A DNA stretch of 36,591 nucleotides, taken from NCBI GenBank assembly GCA_945787575.1, contig CALZKB010000066.1, forward strand, positions 1 to 36,591. The letters are read 5' to 3'. The DNA comes from Thermoanaerobaculia bacterium (GTDB taxonomy: Bacteria > Acidobacteriota > Thermoanaerobaculia > Multivoradales > JAHEKO01). The notes beneath the pieces are model-generated. The model was not told the DNA's origin. It saw only the letters and a list, made by a program, of their open reading frames with translations, and made no database searches. Of this stretch, positions 127-14,906 are shown one piece after another. A program made the position numbers and the translations under genes. Position 1 is the stretch's first letter. Every line of letters starts with the position of its first letter.

Positions 127-2277
127 ATGCTGAAGAGAAAGGCCTCTCTCTCCGTTGCCTCGACCGGGCTGGCACTGCTCGGAGCCGCAGCCTGGGTGCC
201 CGAGCTTCCGGCTCAGACACGATTTGCCGACCGCCGCGATGTCGTGCTCGTGGAGATTCCGGTGCAGGTGGAGAAGGACGGCGTGCCGGTCCGTGGCTTG
301 ACGCGCGACGACTTCGAAGTACGCGACGGTCGCAAGAAGGCGGAGATCGTGACCTTCGACGTCATCGATCTGGACATGCTCGGCGGTGCGGATGGCTCGG
401 GCGTCGCGCCCCTCCCGTTGGCGGCGCGCCGGCACTTTCTCTTCCTGTTCGATCTGTCGCTGTCCGACCCATCCAAGATCGCCGAGGCCCAGCGGGCGGC
501 CAACGAGCTCGTAGTTGCCGGTCTCCATCCTTCGGATCTCGCCGCAGTGGCGACCTATTCGAGCCGTTCCGGCATCGCCTTGAAGCTCGGCTTCACGTCG
601 GATCGCCGGCAGCTCGAAGTCGCGATCCGGACCTTGGGCCTGCCTCAACTGGTCAACCGAACCCTGGATCCCCTGAGCCTCACCTTGACCGAGCTGGCAC
701 CGTCGGTGGTGGATCCCGCCGGGGGCGGCGGCCGGGAGGCCGAGGCGGAGGCGGAGATCGCCGCCCTCATCCAGGAGATCGAGGGAGAGGTCACCGCGGC
801 CGCGCGGCGCAATCAGATGCTCGCCTTCACGAGCAGCCTGGCTGGTCTGGCTGAGAGTCTGGGTGGCCTCGACGGGCGCAAGCACGTCGTCTTGCTGTCG
901 GAGGGCTTCGACGCTTCGTCGATCCTGGGCACCGGTGTGGGAACCGCGACCGAGCAGGAGCGGATCGCACGGGTGAGCGATGCCGCGATGGAAGGGCGGA
1001 TATGGGAGGTTGGCGACGACGAGCGTTTCGGCGCGACCGAGGACCAGGGCTTTCTGCGCCGGATGGCGGAAGAGTTCATCCGGGCGGACTGCACGGTCCA
1101 GTCGGTCGACGTCGGTGGCCTGCGCGCGGGTGGCTCGGCGACGGGGACGTCGACCGAATCGGGATCCGAAGCCACCGGCCAGGACGGTCTCTTTCTCATC
1201 GCCGATCAGACCGGTGGCGAGTTCTACCGCAATTTCAACCGGCTGGACGAGGCGATGAATCGGATGCTCGTGCGCACCAGCGTGACCTACGTGCTGGGCA
1301 TCCAGCCGGACAAGATCGAAACTGACGGCTCGTTTCACCGGCTCAGAGTCAAGCTCAAGAACGACGTCAAGGGTGCGCGTCTGGCGCATCGCCAGGGCTA
1401 CTTCGCGCCCAAGCCCTCGGATGAGATCGAGCCGTTCGAGAAGAAGCTGACTGTCGCGGGCCAGATTCTGGGTGGAGGCGAAGGAGGGACCATCCGGACC
1501 GCGGTTCTGGCGGCGGCCCACGAAGTCGCGGCCGAGCGAGCCCACGTGCCGGTGCTGATCGAGGTCGACGGCTCCTCTCTGTTGGACGGGCAGAAAAGCG
1601 GAGTGGTGCCTACCGAGATCTATGTGTACGGCATCGATCGCGAGGGTGCCATCGTCGACTACTTCACCCGTATCCTCGGTCTCGATCTGAAGGAACTGGG
1701 ACCGATGCTGCGGGAGACCGGCCTCAAGTACTGGGGTCACCTCGAGCTTCCGCCCGGCGATTACCTGCTGCGAGTGGTAGTGCGCAACGACGCCTCGGGT
1801 CGCGTCGGTATCCGCAAGCTGCCGCTCAAAGTGCCGGACTTCGTGGGCGGTGAAGGGGCGCTGTGGCCACCGATGATTCCCGAGCCCCAGGGCAAGTGGG
1901 TCTTCGGGCGGGAGAAGCCCGAAGAGCAGGGAGATTTCCCTTATCCGTTCGTCGCCAACGGCCAACCGTTCATTCCGGCGGTGCGGCCGACCGTAGCCGG
2001 CGGACAGGATGTCCAGCTGATCGTCGCCGGTTACCACCTGGGGCCGTCGCCACGAGTCTCCGGGGAGCTCTACGCGTCGGATGGCAGCAAGGTCGAGAGC
2101 TACACGGTGGCGCTGGAAAGCGCCGGCTCGGCGACCGGCGATGGTCCCGATCACTGGCTCGCCCGATTCACCACCGGGAGTCTCGCCCCCGGAGACTACC
2201 GACTCGTGATCACCGTTCCCGGCGGCGGTGGAGCCGACGACCGCCGGAGCGAGATTGCCATTGTGGTGGGAGGATAG
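127..2277 (+). CDS. Secreted VWFA-related (Acidobacteria-type) domain protein
   Basis: A 716-residue protein. The ATG at 127 is chosen over an upstream in-frame ATG at 55 because it follows GGAG (115-118) by 8 bases and begins a signal peptide (KRK, hydrophobic stretch, likely cleavage after LPAQ near residue 30). A short beta-rich segment (about 38-80) precedes a von Willebrand A fold. The metal-site motif DxSxS is intact as D109-L-S111-L-S113. Length, order and the QTRFADRRDVVLVEIPVQV-type lead-in match the VWFA-related family abundant in Acidobacteriota. After the VWA part (to about 430) come several hundred residues of beta-rich sequence with no recognised enzyme motif. Probable role is periplasmic or surface adhesion or protein-protein contact; the function is unknown. 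DUF3179 follows 49 bases downstream on the same strand. Confidence 0.85.
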   Translation: MLKRKASLSVASTGLALLGAAAWVPELPAQTRFADRRDVVLVEIPVQVEKDGVPVRGLTRDDFEVRDGRKKAEIVTFDVIDLDMLGGADGSGVAPLPLAARRHFLFLFDLSLSDPSKIAEAQRAANELVVAGLHPSDLAAVATYSSRSGIALKLGFTSDRRQLEVAIRTLGLPQLVNRTLDPLSLTLTELAPSVVDPAGGGGREAEAEAEIAALIQEIEGEVTAAARRNQMLAFTSSLAGLAESLGGLDGRKHVVLLSEGFDASSILGTGVGTATEQERIARVSDAAMEGRIWEVGDDERFGATEDQGFLRRMAEEFIRADCTVQSVDVGGLRAGGSATGTSTESGSEATGQDGLFLIADQTGGEFYRNFNRLDEAMNRMLVRTSVTYVLGIQPDKIETDGSFHRLRVKLKNDVKGARLAHRQGYFAPKPSDEIEPFEKKLTVAGQILGGGEGGTIRTAVLAAAHEVAAERAHVPVLIEVDGSSLLDGQKSGVVPTEIYVYGIDREGAIVDYFTRILGLDLKELGPMLRETGLKYWGHLELPPGDYLLRVVVRNDASGRVGIRKLPLKVPDFVGGEGALWPPMIPEPQGKWVFGREKPEEQGDFPYPFVANGQPFIPAVRPTVAGGQDVQLIVAGYHLGPSPRVSGELYASDGSKVESYTVALESAGSATGDGPDHWLARFTTGSLAPGDYRLVITVPGGGGADDRRSEIAIVVGG

Positions 2278-2326
2278 CCATCCAGGCTGGACCAAACCGG
2301 TGGCCGGGCGAGGCCGTACCCCTGCC

Positions 2327-3754
2327 GTGATCCGACTACCGACCGTACCCTTGGGTCGCTCCTGTTCTCCGTCGGTGGGCGGGCTGGTCGCAATCGTGGT
2401 GGCGGGTATGCTGTCGCCCGCGCCGGCGGGCGCTGACGAGCTGTCGCCCCAGGAGGGCTACCGGTTGGTCGCCCAGCTCGTTGCCGCGGAGGGGAAGGAC
2501 TCCAAGATCGCGGCGGAGGCGCTGATCCGGGCGGACGACGAGAGCTTGGTGCCCGCCATCGTCGACGGCCTGTTCTTCGTTCCCAGACCGCAGCGGGCAC
2601 CGGTGCGCAAGGTGTTGGAGCGACTCACCGGCCACGATGCCGGCAACCGTCATCGCGATTGGGTCGAGTACGTCGGTTCGCGCACCGATCTTCGCCCCAA
2701 GCCGGGATACGACCAGTGGAAGTCGCTCCAGCTCAGGAGAGTGGACGCGAACTTCGGCCGGGTGATCTACGGCGGCGTCCCGGCTCGAATCCGGCTGGAA
2801 GAGATCGTCTGGGGTGGCGTCCGGTTGGACGGAATTCCCTCGATCGACGACCCTGCGATCACCAGTGCGGCCGAGGCCGCCTTCATGCGCGATCGAGAGC
2901 TGGTCTTCGGCGTTCACGTGGGGGGCGTCTACCGCGCGTACCCGAGGCGGGTGCTCTCCTGGCACGAGATGCTCAACGACGTGGTGGGCGGCGAGCCGGT
3001 GACCCTGAGCTACTGCACCCTGTGCGGCTCGGCGGTGCTCTACGCGACCGGGCTCGACCACGACCGCCGCGTGCTCGGCACCTCCGGCTTGCTCTACCGC
3101 AGCAACAAGCTGATGTACGACCGGGCGACCTACAGTCTGTGGAGCAATCTGACCGGGGAGGCGGTCTTGGGTCAGGAAGCGGCCTTGGGTGAAAAGCTCG
3201 TTTCGCTGCCCCTGACGCTGATCCAATGGGGTCGATGGCGCGAGGCTCATCCGACGACCGAGGTTCTCGACATCCCCGCGCTCAAGCAGAAGATCGGGCG
3301 AGAGTTCAGCTTCGACTACACGATCGGCGCGGCCGACCGAGCTCGCGAAGGCGTCTCCTTCCCGGTGTGGCGCAAGAGCGCCGCGCTCGAGCGCAACGCC
3401 GAGATCTATTCGCTCAAGGTCGGTGACGCCGCCAAGGCTTACCCGCTGGACGTGCTGTACGAGACGCCGGTCGTCAACGACGTGCTCGGGGGGGTGGAGA
3501 TCGTCTTGGTCAGCGATGTCCAAAGCGGAGCCGTCCGCGCCTACCGAAGCGAAGGTGAGAGATTCGCCGCGGGCGATGGCGCCGATCTGGTCGAGGACGG
3601 GAAAGGCCGAGTCTGGCGCCTGGAGGAGCAGGCCTTGATCCTCGGGGAAGGCGCCGGCGCTCGCCGACTCGAACGCCTGGCGGGTCACGTCGCCTTCTGG
3701 TTCGGCTGGTTCGGTTTCTACCCGGAGACGGAGATCTACGGCATCCCTCGATGA
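2327..3754 (+). CDS. DUF3179 domain-containing secreted protein
   Basis: A GTG at 2327 is preferred, giving 475 residues with an N-terminal hydrophobic export segment (GGLVAIVVAGMLSPAPAGA). No clear ribosome site supports it, and the in-frame ATG at 2408 is an alternative. An upstream ATG (2228) would overlap the VWFA gene and destroy the signal peptide. The body carries the DUF3179 hallmark SYCTLCGSAVLY and repeated W-x-N-L-T-G and YPLDVLYETPVVND-like segments. The family is widespread in marine bacteria and its biochemical function is not established. The two close Cys residues could bind metal or form a disulfide, but this is inference. It probably shares a transcript with the VWFA gene. 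Confidence 0.8.
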   Translation: MIRLPTVPLGRSCSPSVGGLVAIVVAGMLSPAPAGADELSPQEGYRLVAQLVAAEGKDSKIAAEALIRADDESLVPAIVDGLFFVPRPQRAPVRKVLERLTGHDAGNRHRDWVEYVGSRTDLRPKPGYDQWKSLQLRRVDANFGRVIYGGVPARIRLEEIVWGGVRLDGIPSIDDPAITSAAEAAFMRDRELVFGVHVGGVYRAYPRRVLSWHEMLNDVVGGEPVTLSYCTLCGSAVLYATGLDHDRRVLGTSGLLYRSNKLMYDRATYSLWSNLTGEAVLGQEAALGEKLVSLPLTLIQWGRWREAHPTTEVLDIPALKQKIGREFSFDYTIGAADRAREGVSFPVWRKSAALERNAEIYSLKVGDAAKAYPLDVLYETPVVNDVLGGVEIVLVSDVQSGAVRAYRSEGERFAAGDGADLVEDGKGRVWRLEEQALILGEGAGARRLERLAGHVAFWFGWFGFYPETEIYGIPR

Positions 3755-3919: not shown

Positions 3920-3996
3920 AGGCCCGTAGCTCAGATGGTTAGAGCGCTACGTTGACATCGTAGAGGTCAGCGGTTCAAGTCCGCTCGGGCCTACCA
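3920..3996 (+). tRNA. tRNA-Val (anticodon GAC)
   Basis: A full cloverleaf can be drawn. The acceptor AGGCCCG pairs fully with CGGGCCT, the D stem is GCTC/GAGC, and the anticodon stem CTACG/CGTAG holds loop TTGACAT with anticodon GAC at 3954-3956. The T stem AGCGG/CCGCT has loop TTCAAGT. Discriminator A and CCA are encoded (3993-3996). It reads GUC and GUU. Confidence 0.97.
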
Positions 3997-4080: not shown

Positions 4081-4157
4081 AGGCGCTTAGCTCAGCTGGT
4101 TAGAGCGCTACCTTCACACGGTAGAGGTCAGCGGTTCGAGTCCGCTAGCGCCTACCA
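4081..4157 (+). tRNA. tRNA-Val (anticodon CAC)
   Basis: Acceptor AGGCGCT pairs perfectly with AGCGCCT. The D stem is GCTC/GAGC, and anticodon stem CTACC/GGTAG holds loop TTCACAC with anticodon CAC at 4115-4117. The T stem is AGCGG/CCGCT, and CCA is encoded (4155-4157). It reads GUG. It shares its D and T arms with the tRNA-Val(GAC) 84 bases upstream, suggesting duplication and divergence. Only 20 bases separate its 3' end from the thrS start. Confidence 0.97.
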
Positions 4158-4177: not shown

Positions 4178-6097
4178 ATGATTGAACTGACGCTTCCCGA
4201 CGGGTCGGTCCGCGAGGTGGCGCCCGGCTCGACGCCGCTGGACGTGGCGGCCCAGATCGGCCCCCGGCTCGCCAAGGCGGCGGTCGGCGCGGAGCTCGAC
4301 GGAGCCCCGGTCGATCTGCGCCATCCGCTCGACAGAAGCGGAGCGTTCCGCTTGTTCACCGATCGCGACTCCGAGGCCGGAGACTTCATCCGCCACAGCG
4401 CCGAGCACGTACTCGCCGACGCCGTCAAGCGCCTCTGGCCGGAGGTCGAGATCGACGCCGGACGGCAGGATCACTCGGAGAAGTACCAGTACGACTTCCG
4501 GTTCCCGCGAGCTTTCACGGCGGAGGACCTCGAGCGGATCGAGGCCAAGATGCGCGAGATCCTGAAGGAGGACAGCGTTTTCGAGCGGGTCGAGATCTCG
4601 CGTCAGGAGGCCGCCGAGCTCTTCGCTTCGATGGGTGAGAACCTCAAGGTCGAGCGCCTCGAGGACATTCCCGAAGGCGAGGCGATCACGCTCTACAAGC
4701 ACGGCGACTTCGTCGATCTCTGTCGCGGACCGCACGCTCAACGCGCCTCACAGGTCGGCGCGGTCAAGCTCCTGGAGGCGTCCGGGGTCTACTGGAAGGG
4801 CGACGAGTCGAACGAGATGCTGCAGCGTATCTACGGCACCGCCTTCGGCAGCCAGAAGGAGATGGACGAGTACGTCGAACGCGTGGAGCAGGCGAATGCC
4901 CGCGACCACCGACGTCTCGGCCCGGAGCTCGATCTCTTCAGCTTCGACGACACGGCGCCGGCCAACCCGTTCTTCCATCCCAAGGGCGCGGTGATCTACA
5001 ACGAGCTGGTCGACTTCGTGCGCGAAGTCCAGGTCGCCGACGGCTTCGACGAGGTCATCACGCCGCAGATCCTCGACGTCGACCTCTGGCACACCTCCGG
5101 GCACTACGACAACTACCGCGAGAACATGTTCTTCACCGCGGCCGACGAGCGGCAGTTCGCCGTCAAGCCGATGAACTGCCCGACCCATTGTCTGATCTAC
5201 TCGACCGGGCTGCGCTCGTACCGCGACCTGCCGATCCGTTACGCCGACTTCGGCCGCCTGCACCGCTACGAGCGCAGCGGCGTGACCTCGGGGCTGACCC
5301 GGGTGCGCACCTTCTGCCAGGACGACGCGCATGTCTTCTGCACGCCGGAACAGGTCGAGTCCGAGGTGCTGATGATGGTGTCCATGATCCGTGGGATCTA
5401 CGACACCTTCGGTTTCGAGGGCACCCTGATCGAGCTCTCGACGCGACCGGAGAAGCGAATCGGTGCCGACGAGCTATGGGACGAAGCGGAAGCGGCATTG
5501 GCGGCGGCGCTCGACACGGCGGAGATCGAGTACGAGCTCAACGCCGGCGACGGCGCGTTCTACGGCCCGAAGATCGACTTCCAGATCGAGGACGCCATCG
5601 GCCGCTCCTGGCAGCTCGGGACCGTCCAGCTCGATTACTTTCTGCCGGAGCGCTTCGGGCTAGCCTACGTCGGCGACGACGGCGAGGAGCATCAGCCGGT
5701 GATGATTCATCGCGCGATGCTCGGCTCGATCGAACGGTTCATGGGCATCCTCATCGAGCACACCGCCGGTGCTTTCCCGATCTGGCTCGCACCGGTGCAG
5801 GCGGTCGTGATCCCGGTCTCGGAGAAGAACCTCGACTACGCGCGGAAGGTGCACGACGAGATCGCGGCGACCGGAGCGCGGGTGAAGGTCGACCTGCGCA
5901 ACGAGAAGCTCGGCTACAAGATCCGGGATGCGCAGCTGCAGAAAGTGCCGTATATGCTGGTCGTGGGTGCTCGCGAGGAGGAGAGCGGCCAGGTGGCGCT
6001 GAGGCTGCGCAACGGCGAGGACCTCGGCGCGACTCCGGTGGCCGACGTCGCGCGGAGGATCGCCGAGCGGATCGCCGAGCGATCTCTCGAGCTCTGA
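4178..6097 (+). CDS. thrS: Threonine--tRNA ligase
   Basis: A 639-residue cytoplasmic enzyme that charges tRNA-Thr. The start is ATG 4178 with GAGG at 4165-4168. Domains in order are TGS (1-60), the editing domain with all four key residues (H73, H77, C182, H186), the class II catalytic core and a C-terminal anticodon-binding domain (about 535-639). The zinc ligands fall at C334, H385 and H511, the same numbering as the E. coli enzyme. Motif 2 (RYADFGRLHRYERSG) and motif 3 (HRAMLGSIERF) are intact. It should therefore be active and able to hydrolyse mischarged Ser-tRNA. There is no room for its own promoter after the tRNA, so it is probably co-transcribed with the tRNAs. No T-box leader is possible in 20 bases. 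Confidence 0.97.
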   Translation: MIELTLPDGSVREVAPGSTPLDVAAQIGPRLAKAAVGAELDGAPVDLRHPLDRSGAFRLFTDRDSEAGDFIRHSAEHVLADAVKRLWPEVEIDAGRQDHSEKYQYDFRFPRAFTAEDLERIEAKMREILKEDSVFERVEISRQEAAELFASMGENLKVERLEDIPEGEAITLYKHGDFVDLCRGPHAQRASQVGAVKLLEASGVYWKGDESNEMLQRIYGTAFGSQKEMDEYVERVEQANARDHRRLGPELDLFSFDDTAPANPFFHPKGAVIYNELVDFVREVQVADGFDEVITPQILDVDLWHTSGHYDNYRENMFFTAADERQFAVKPMNCPTHCLIYSTGLRSYRDLPIRYADFGRLHRYERSGVTSGLTRVRTFCQDDAHVFCTPEQVESEVLMMVSMIRGIYDTFGFEGTLIELSTRPEKRIGADELWDEAEAALAAALDTAEIEYELNAGDGAFYGPKIDFQIEDAIGRSWQLGTVQLDYFLPERFGLAYVGDDGEEHQPVMIHRAMLGSIERFMGILIEHTAGAFPIWLAPVQAVVIPVSEKNLDYARKVHDEIAATGARVKVDLRNEKLGYKIRDAQLQKVPYMLVVGAREEESGQVALRLRNGEDLGATPVADVARRIAERIAERSLEL

Positions 6098-6111: not shown

Positions 6112-6813
6112 ATGGACTCCTCCGCACTCGTCGACGGCCTCGTCTTCTACGTCGTCTTTCTGCTTTCGGTCACCCTTCACGAGGCGGCGCACGCCTGGGC
6201 CGCCAAGCGCGGTGGTGATCCCACCGCCTATCTCGGAGGCCAGGTGAGCCTCGACCCGCTGCCGCACATCCGCCGGGAGCCGTTCGGGATGGTGATCCTG
6301 CCGCTGCTCTCGGTCTTCCTCACCGGCTGGCCGTTCGGCTTTGCCAGCGCTCCCTACGATCGAAACTGGGCGGTACGTCATCCGCGTCGCGCGGGCTGGA
6401 TGGCACTGGCCGGCCCCGCGGCCAACCTGTTGCTGATGGGAGCGGCCGCGATCGCCGTCTTCGGGGGGGTGCTGGCGGGCGCCTTCGAGCCGCCCCAGGC
6501 GATCGGCTTCAGCCGCGTGACGGCGGCCACCGGAGACCTCGGTCCTCTCGCCTTCTTCCTGAGCGCGCTGTTTTCGATGAACCTCTTGCTCGCCGTCTTG
6601 AATCTGATTCCGGTGCCCCCGCTCGACGGCAGCGGTGCGCTGCCCCTCCTACTGCCGGCGCGGCTGACGGCGCGTTATCAGGAGTTTCTCTGGGGCAATC
6701 CGATGCTCGGATGGATCGGCATCCTCGTCGCATGGCGGCTGCTCGACTATCTGTTCCATCCGATCTGGCTGGCGGCGGTCAATCTGATCTACCCGGGCCT
6801 CTCCTACGGCTGA
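6112..6813 (+). CDS. Site-2 protease family (peptidase M50) membrane protein
   Basis: A 233-residue integral membrane protein starting 14 bases after thrS. The zinc motif HEAAH is at residues 23-27 inside the first hydrophobic segment. The second metal motif, N-L-I-P-V-P-P-L-D-G, lies in a later segment near residue 170. About five hydrophobic stretches are visible. This matches the short M50 rhomboid-neighbour type (YwhC/Rv1417-like) rather than RseP, as no PDZ domain is present. Such proteins cleave substrates within the membrane, but the target here is unknown. The ORF is open far upstream inside thrS in another frame; the ATG at 6112 is chosen because it begins the M50 homology. It occupies the position where infC is usually found. 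Confidence 0.85.
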   Translation: MDSSALVDGLVFYVVFLLSVTLHEAAHAWAAKRGGDPTAYLGGQVSLDPLPHIRREPFGMVILPLLSVFLTGWPFGFASAPYDRNWAVRHPRRAGWMALAGPAANLLLMGAAAIAVFGGVLAGAFEPPQAIGFSRVTAATGDLGPLAFFLSALFSMNLLLAVLNLIPVPPLDGSGALPLLLPARLTARYQEFLWGNPMLGWIGILVAWRLLDYLFHPIWLAAVNLIYPGLSYG

Positions 6814-6858
6814 AGATCGAGCCGGCCCGCGCTCGTCGCCGGCTGGGCCGAGGTGGCC

Positions 6859-7032
6859 GGCCCTGCGGCGAGAGAGCACTGACCCCCAGGGGGACGCTCG
6901 CGCGTACTCGGTCTGCGAGTCGGCGACGCGCGGCTCACTCGCCGTCGCTGGACAGCCGGATGGGATCTTGAACGGTGAAAGCCCCGCTCGGCTCGAGCCC
7001 CCTGGGCTGTCAGTGCTCTCTCGCCTTGGGCC
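6859..7032. repeat. Long imperfect inverted repeat, candidate structured RNA
   Basis: The arms pair as GGCCC (6859-6863) with GGGCC (7028-7032), then 17 perfect base pairs (6867-6883 with 7009-7025), then 9 more (6885-6893 with 6998-7006). The joins are small internal loops of 3x2 and 1x2. The roughly 100-base centre can itself fold into CGCGT...ACGCG plus ACTCG/CGAGT (6901-6930) and CGGCT/AGCCG (6931-6935 with 6954-6958). The result is a branched structure closed by 31 base pairs. No gene lies in this stretch. It sits upstream of the likely rpmI promoter, so it is not clearly a leader of rpmI. The strand of any transcript is unknown. Confidence 0.6.
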
Positions 7033-7086
7033 TACCGTGGGTCGCGAGGAAAGCGATGAAGCCAGCTCACAGGCCTCGGCGAGGGG

Positions 7087-7115
7087 TTGTCTCCCTCCAT
7101 CGCCGCCCCTATAAT
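7087..7115 (+). promoter_or_regulatory. Candidate rpmI-rplT promoter
   Basis: The -35 is TTGTCT (7087-7092), followed after exactly 17 bases by a perfect -10 TATAAT (7110-7115). Predicted start is near 7122, leaving about 20 bases of leader. The leader includes the strong ribosome site AGAAGGAG (7128-7135), 8 bases before the GTG start of rpmI. Confidence 0.65.
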
Positions 7116-14701: not shown

Positions 14702-14906
14702 GGGACAAGCATCCCCTGCGTGGTTTGTGATGAGTCGACGCGTTTTAGAACCAACTCTAATGTCTAGGGAGCCTCACTTCGGCGCGGCCTGTGCCAGCCC
14801 CGCATGCACGGGGACGCTAACGGCTCGCAGAGAGGGCACCCACCTGGTAAGCGCCAGGTTCTAGACTTCCGACTCACACGGCTTGCGCGGGGGGTGCGGG
14901 TTCTTT
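14702..14906 (+). ncRNA. ssrS: Probable 6S RNA
   Basis: The 288-base gap between zapA and rny has no gene but can form a 6S-like closed rod. The closing stem pairs 14710-14721 (CATCCCCTGCGT) with 14885-14896 (GCGCGGGGGGTG) in 12 continuous pairs, three of them G-T. A weaker extension pairs 14702-14709 with bases after 14896. Inside are a large unpaired region, hairpin ACCTGG/CCAGGT (near 14842-14860) and a GC-rich apical part with CCCG/CGGG. Size (about 200 bases) and location next to zapA match ssrS in many bacteria. 6S RNA mimics an open promoter and sequesters sigma70 RNA polymerase. Exact ends are estimates; the identification rests on fold and context, not on sequence search. Confidence 0.65.

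Follow-up and report, generated by a model that had tools for sequence, protein, structure and literature searches.

Positions 6852–7050 of the window (the whole stretch of DNA that was analysed, 36,591 nucleotides from a Thermoanaerobaculia bacterium) were identified, with moderate confidence, as one copy, probably solo or decayed, of a non-autonomous mobile hairpin element resembling REPINs and MITEs. The hairpin belongs to an apparently undescribed family of folding repeats of about 200 bases. Within one order of Acidobacteriota, the family is found at dozens of sites, most of them immediately behind genes. The open-access papers searched contained no description of repeats in the Thermoanaerobaculia. 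The spread to so many sites marks the sequence as one of a mobile-repeat type, rather than a switch controlling the ribosomal genes.

The extent of the window copy (plus strand, like the other features of the window given with a strand below) was defined by BLAST matches covering positions 13–211 of a query made from 6840–7060 and by alignment. The upstream neighbour is a Peptidase_M50 gene (6112–6813, plus strand, Pfam PF02163) with its stop codon approximately 40 bp before the unit, which is the usual position for the family according to the context statistics. Further neighbours identified with Pfam were the genes for ThrRS (4178–6097), L35 (7144–7338) and L20 (7446–7850). A promoter scan located the rpmI promoter TTGTCT-17-TATAAT, conserved from its −10 region onward in a genome of the same genus (G001), at 7087–7115 (plus strand), outside the element and downstream of it as the preliminary description of this region had stated. 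The window also contains two tRNA genes upstream of thrS (3920–3993 and 4081–4154, plus strand) and an ordinary known RNA, 6S RNA, at 14710–14897 (plus strand; Rfam, 79.6 bits).

When 6850–7040 was folded with RNAfold, the closing stem reported in the preliminary description was reproduced exactly, with 5 + 17 + 9 pairs joining a 5′ arm (6859–6893, plus strand) to a 3′ arm (6998–7032, plus strand) across a centre of 104 nt (6894–6997, plus strand). The helices are 6859–6863/7028–7032 (5 bp), 6867–6883/7009–7025 (17 bp) and 6885–6893/6998–7006 (9 bp), and an additional outer helix of 4 bp was predicted at 6852–6855/7033–7036. The earlier judgement that such pairing was unlikely to arise by chance also held, as the fold (−116.3 kcal/mol) had a z-score of −6.07 and none of 200 dinucleotide shuffles was as good. 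The closing stem was retained on the opposite strand (z −7.39) and with DNA parameters (z −5.73). The centre is branched and carries a conserved core motif, ACGCTCGCGC, on its 5′ side, as judged from the alignment, the predicted hairpins and a comparison of core profiles. The inner hairpins originally proposed at 6901–6930 and 6931–6958 were not recovered, and RNAfold predicted other ones at 6894–6905, 6906–6920, 6921–6950 and 6954–6993. Neither a T run nor a terminator match was found at the element in the window, so it does not have the features of an intrinsic terminator, and no promoter consensus was present within or ahead of the unit.

A search for other genomic copies, which the preliminary description had proposed, was performed on the source genome (5.6 Mb in 484 contigs) with the copies collected region by region. 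At least 17 loci contained related units, sharing 74–87 % identity, with short fragments reaching 100 %. Several of these loci sit at contig ends, where assemblies are broken by repeats. Two unit types occur, A (which includes the window copy) and B, with different arms and with small indels distinguishing their cores. In the fullest form, found in contig C18 (locus L009, 2395–2985), an A unit is separated by about 110 bp from an oppositely oriented B unit, and the composite is a single palindrome of approximately 590 bp. Composites with internal deletions were still palindromic. Complete copies have terminal inverted repeats close to GGGGGACCCGTGCCCCCGGTTCTTTGAGTCSTCGCTCCCTGATTGCCGGCCC, which are not recognisable in the window copy. 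Ends belonging to the same copy matched at 0.87–0.88 in four of the six copies compared, while ends of different copies matched at a mean of 0.74 and a maximum of 0.83. None of the 13 loci examined for context in this genome lay between divergent genes. A MITE-like repeat, one of the options first put forward, is the one favoured by these loci, the terminal inverted repeats of the complete copies and the patchy occupation of orthologous sites described below.

Searches of the 17 other genomes of the genus and family with BLAST and with an initial covariance model detected no copies. In a genus from another family of the same order (here g11), BLAST recovered 13–42 copies per genome in a sample of 13 genomes, and a covariance model (R2) found at least 7 copies in all 21 genomes (7 to at least 16 each). 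We read the g11 bins as sponge symbionts from their isolate names. Candidatus Multivorans thiocomprendens (Acidobacteriota, Thermoanaerobaculia) is among the records containing the core pattern, along with other Thermoanaerobaculia bins. Of 297 sampled genomes of the phylum, only members of the same order gave matches at E 1e-5. Single covariance-model matches of approximately 45–58 bits in other families look alike and were left out of the firm counts because the palindromic shape alone earns about 36–46 bits, as measured on the reverse strand of true copies. The element was not found in viral contigs using one exact pattern, plasmids contained no match to a g11 copy and phages contained none to the window copy.

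The repeat family of the source genome and that of g11 have a common motif, CCAGGGG(G)ACGCTCGCGC. With core-only sequence profiles, the best copy from the source genome was detected at E 6e-5, and several of its other copies, together with copies from G008 and G005, aligned in the right register with weaker E-values. The short core motif and these weak profile matches suggest that the two repeat families are homologous. In another genome of the same family as the source genome (G012), two long palindromes with little loop are found close together (L169, 251–327 and 409–524) and are possibly internally deleted relatives of the element.

The preliminary description had also proposed that compensatory changes be sought in the arms, and these were present among the dispersed copies. 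In 38 non-redundant g11 copies, two-sided changes occurred in 29 of 39 pairs, and the covariation score was 0.396 compared with 0.135 when shuffled (0 of 500 as high), collapsing once the partners were slid by one column. In a larger set of 108 copies sharing less than 90 % identity, compensation extended over the outer arms and main stem and into two inner helices, as at pairs 48/163 (CG in 50 and GC in 45), 59/86 (GC 79, CG 17, AT 11) and 101/153 (GC 86, CG 10, AT 10). The 14 units from the source genome followed the same pattern more weakly. The helices thus covary in the way used to recognise structured RNAs (Rfam-type). When orthologous loci were compared across species, the arms were found to change in concert, including a paired single-base indel, and the asymmetric core and the end sequences were strongly conserved over many loci and genomes.

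Selection acting on one RNA strand is expected to leave G·U pairs common and A·C mismatches rare. In the 108 copies, the arms contained 62 G·U and 51 A·C among 2,962 cells, and the inner helices contained 1 G·U and 17 A·C; an independent arm-to-arm comparison of 73 copies gave 22 G·U and 33 A·C. Seven tRNAs from the same loci, used as a control, showed 10 G·U and no A·C. A preference for G·U over A·C on the transcribed strand was therefore not found in the g11 copies. The 17 A·C mismatches of the inner helices would be wobbles on the minus strand, but they lie mostly at one pair and are non-independent. An exception came from the small set in the source genome, where one inner helix had 5 G·U and no A·C. 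Because G·U is not in excess over A·C, unlike in tRNA stems, and the arms change together, the sequence comparisons point to pairing that matters, or gets repaired, in DNA. Of the candidate new structured RNA first proposed here, the structure is supported by the strong covariation. Its being an RNA is not supported, as the arms show no excess of G·U over A·C and the inner helices have fewer G·U than A·C. This is a caution, since from covariation alone a new structured RNA would have been suggested.

The context of the g11 copies was examined using genes called with a simple purpose-made codon model. A gene reads towards the left end in 76 of 96 copies, and its stop codon is a median of 28 bp away. 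Flanking gene pairs in the same sense as the element (++) outnumbered those in the opposite sense (−−) by 36 to 10 (p = 1.6e-4; 39 and 38 in background gene pairs). Convergent gene pairs were over-represented around the copies (p = 0.003) and divergent pairs were not significantly rarer (p = 0.29). Perfect inverted repeats are generally enriched 50–80 bp behind bacterial stop codons, which has been attributed to terminators (PMC13155455), so that position alone is no proof of a special mechanism.

The ends of the element are sharp. Target duplications, which the preliminary description had expected of a mobile element, were not found, as comparison of the flanks revealed no copy-specific target-site duplication. 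The right-end profile of the g11 copies ends in GTCGTCGG, not T. The left flank ends in a CGG motif in 54 of 86 cases, and a CGG-type motif is found at both ends. The motif at the left flank would also account for a tandem array of three copies with a period of 203 bp. Many copies occupy the same place in different species, and orthologous sites that lack the element or contain remnants of it also occur between species, none of them with an insertion junction clean enough to define the target. At four loci (L076, L106, L111 and L115) with approximately 90 % identity in the flanks, the elements belong to core subtypes that clearly differ, which suggests replacement or gene conversion between copies.

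The search for a mobilising enzyme included Y1 transposases, which were absent above the cut-off from several copy-rich genomes. In the source genome, none of the 10 Y1 matches had a copy in the searched flank, and no cognate RAYT flanked by the same repeat was found, several of these Y1 flanks being cut by contig ends. An association with Y1/RAYT genes was rejected because the genes were not consistently present or were not adjacent to copies. The terminal repeats themselves were seen, and no full transposon sharing them was found among the Y1 genes searched. Two g11 RAYT-type Y1 genes are flanked by a different, small GTAG-tagged palindrome, GTAGCCGCCGGCCARCGGCCGGCG (at about 1326–1352 in L218, and about 1064–1090 and 1880–1906 in L219), which is apparently a conventional REP family distinct from the large element. 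An integron integrase was rejected as the mobiliser, there being no match over the cut-off of 265 bits in 11 genomes. The source genome encodes a tyrosine recombinase (L309; contig C321 of G000, 2273–3082, minus strand) with a partial integron-integrase match of 119 bits, which falls below this cut-off. Reverse transcriptases were rejected as they were absent or patchy, and the listed open reading frames between inverted pairs in the sponge genus included no obvious transposase by eye.

Among known elements, the family comes closest to REPINs and tagged REPs, and to the terminal inverted repeats (TIR) of tyrosine transposases in Acidobacteria. REPINs and tagged REPs lie behind genes, build tandem arrays and have inverted halves that pair into long hairpins and show compensatory changes (PMC3116915, PMC3733652). 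The present family is likewise dispersed and extragenic, mostly behind genes, and lacks an autonomous gene, as do GTAG/CGTC-tagged REPs. Its many copies, some of them in a tandem array, fold from a pair of inverted halves into a long hairpin in which changes are compensated. In the source genome, GTAG was seen by eye before a CCGGGGG/CCCCCGG-type hairpin at about half of the complete ends, with one perfect case. In g11, CGTC was found in 56 of 106 right ends compared with 13 in the control flank, and GACG was not enriched at the left end (15 versus 11). However, published REPs are 20–40 bp (PMC3116915, PMC3733652), whereas the unit here is about 200 bp, with composites to approximately 590 bp and a branched core that is asymmetric and conserved, and the searches made here found no cognate RAYT. 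TIR repeats of TIRYT tyrosine transposases are known in Acidobacteria (PMC3733652) and share with the family the phylum, long terminal inverted repeats, moderate copy number and dimers. The family differs from them in class, no TIRYT gene was found beside the copies, and the GGGGWSAS motif has no exact match in the family. NEMIS/Correia and ERIC are MITE-like structured repeats of 100–200 bp with terminal inverted repeats that form a hairpin when transcribed, as would the present element, which differs in its larger conserved core and in lacking a target duplication. Integron attC sites are imperfect hairpins with variable arms and conserved ends, oriented and directly behind stop codons. The family shares the imperfect hairpin, the variable arms, the conserved ends and the orientation directly behind stop codons, but cassette arrays were not seen, no integrase exceeded the cut-off and the ends lack the attC core consensus.

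Other explanations for the element would place its function in RNA. As a 3′ untranslated element, the hairpin would end the transcript of the upstream gene and protect, process or terminate the message, with selection on the RNA keeping the structure and dispersal being secondary. The short distance from the stop codon and the orientation bias would fit, as would the strong covariation, inner helices included, the inner helix with G·U only in the source genome, and the fact that inverted repeats behind bacterial stops are common and tied to termination (PMC13155455). We nevertheless consider this explanation unlikely, as the g11 copies lack the G·U excess that tRNAs show, neither a T run nor a terminator match was found and copies are patchy at orthologous loci. 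What stands of the 3′ element of the thrS–M50 transcript initially suggested is its position, behind stop codons and mostly in the sense orientation. An independent small RNA gene on either strand that has been multiplied is improbable. The conserved branched core of about 100 nt, the covarying inner helices and the minus-strand wobbles (17, against 1 on the other strand) speak for it, but most of those wobbles come from the one pair, the window unit has no promoter consensus and there is no Rfam match. A bL20/rpmI leader, or another cis-regulator of ribosomal genes, was rejected and is given almost no credence here. The element does lie in the gap upstream of rpmI, but the promoter is downstream of it, no Rfam match was obtained even at E 5, G001 keeps the rpmI −10 region and the genes with no element upstream, and other copies adjoin unrelated genes. 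The caution expressed about such a leader in the preliminary description was justified.

It is also conceivable, though a shade less so than a small RNA gene, that the structure is functionless, and consists of long inverted repeats derived from duplication and kept perfect by hairpin-templated repair, with copies surviving behind genes by least-harm chance. The concerted changes of the arms, with their paired indels, the lack of a wobble bias and the general enrichment of inverted repeats behind genes (PMC13155455) agree with this, whereas strong conservation of the asymmetric core and ends across many loci and genomes, and covariation in the short inner helices, do not. Under the favoured reading, a non-autonomous mobile hairpin, the unit is an imperfect palindrome of which a single strand would fold up, with a long stem closing off a conserved branched core, and it probably moved as folded single-stranded DNA. 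A recombinase or transposase acting in trans would recognise it, much as with REPINs, and insert it 3′ of a CGG-type motif resembling its own right end. The arms may stay complementary because the substrate is folded DNA, or through hairpin-templated repair. Copies would persist where they are least harmful, behind genes, and the hairpin there may in addition influence the 3′ end of the message. We tentatively raise the possibility that this is a new class of mobile nucleic acid. Such a unit, 200 bases long and folded around a conserved branched core, would be recognised in single-stranded form. An enzyme so far connected with no repeat would insert it behind stop codons, and it would double as a 3′-end element for genes.

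With this family, a little-studied group to which sponge symbionts belong gains an abundant and apparently unannotated repeat whose folded core is conserved. Its helices covary without tolerating wobbles, its ends are sharp and show no duplication, and it sits immediately behind stop codons, which makes it a good natural system for testing whether large hairpins move or homogenise as single-stranded DNA.
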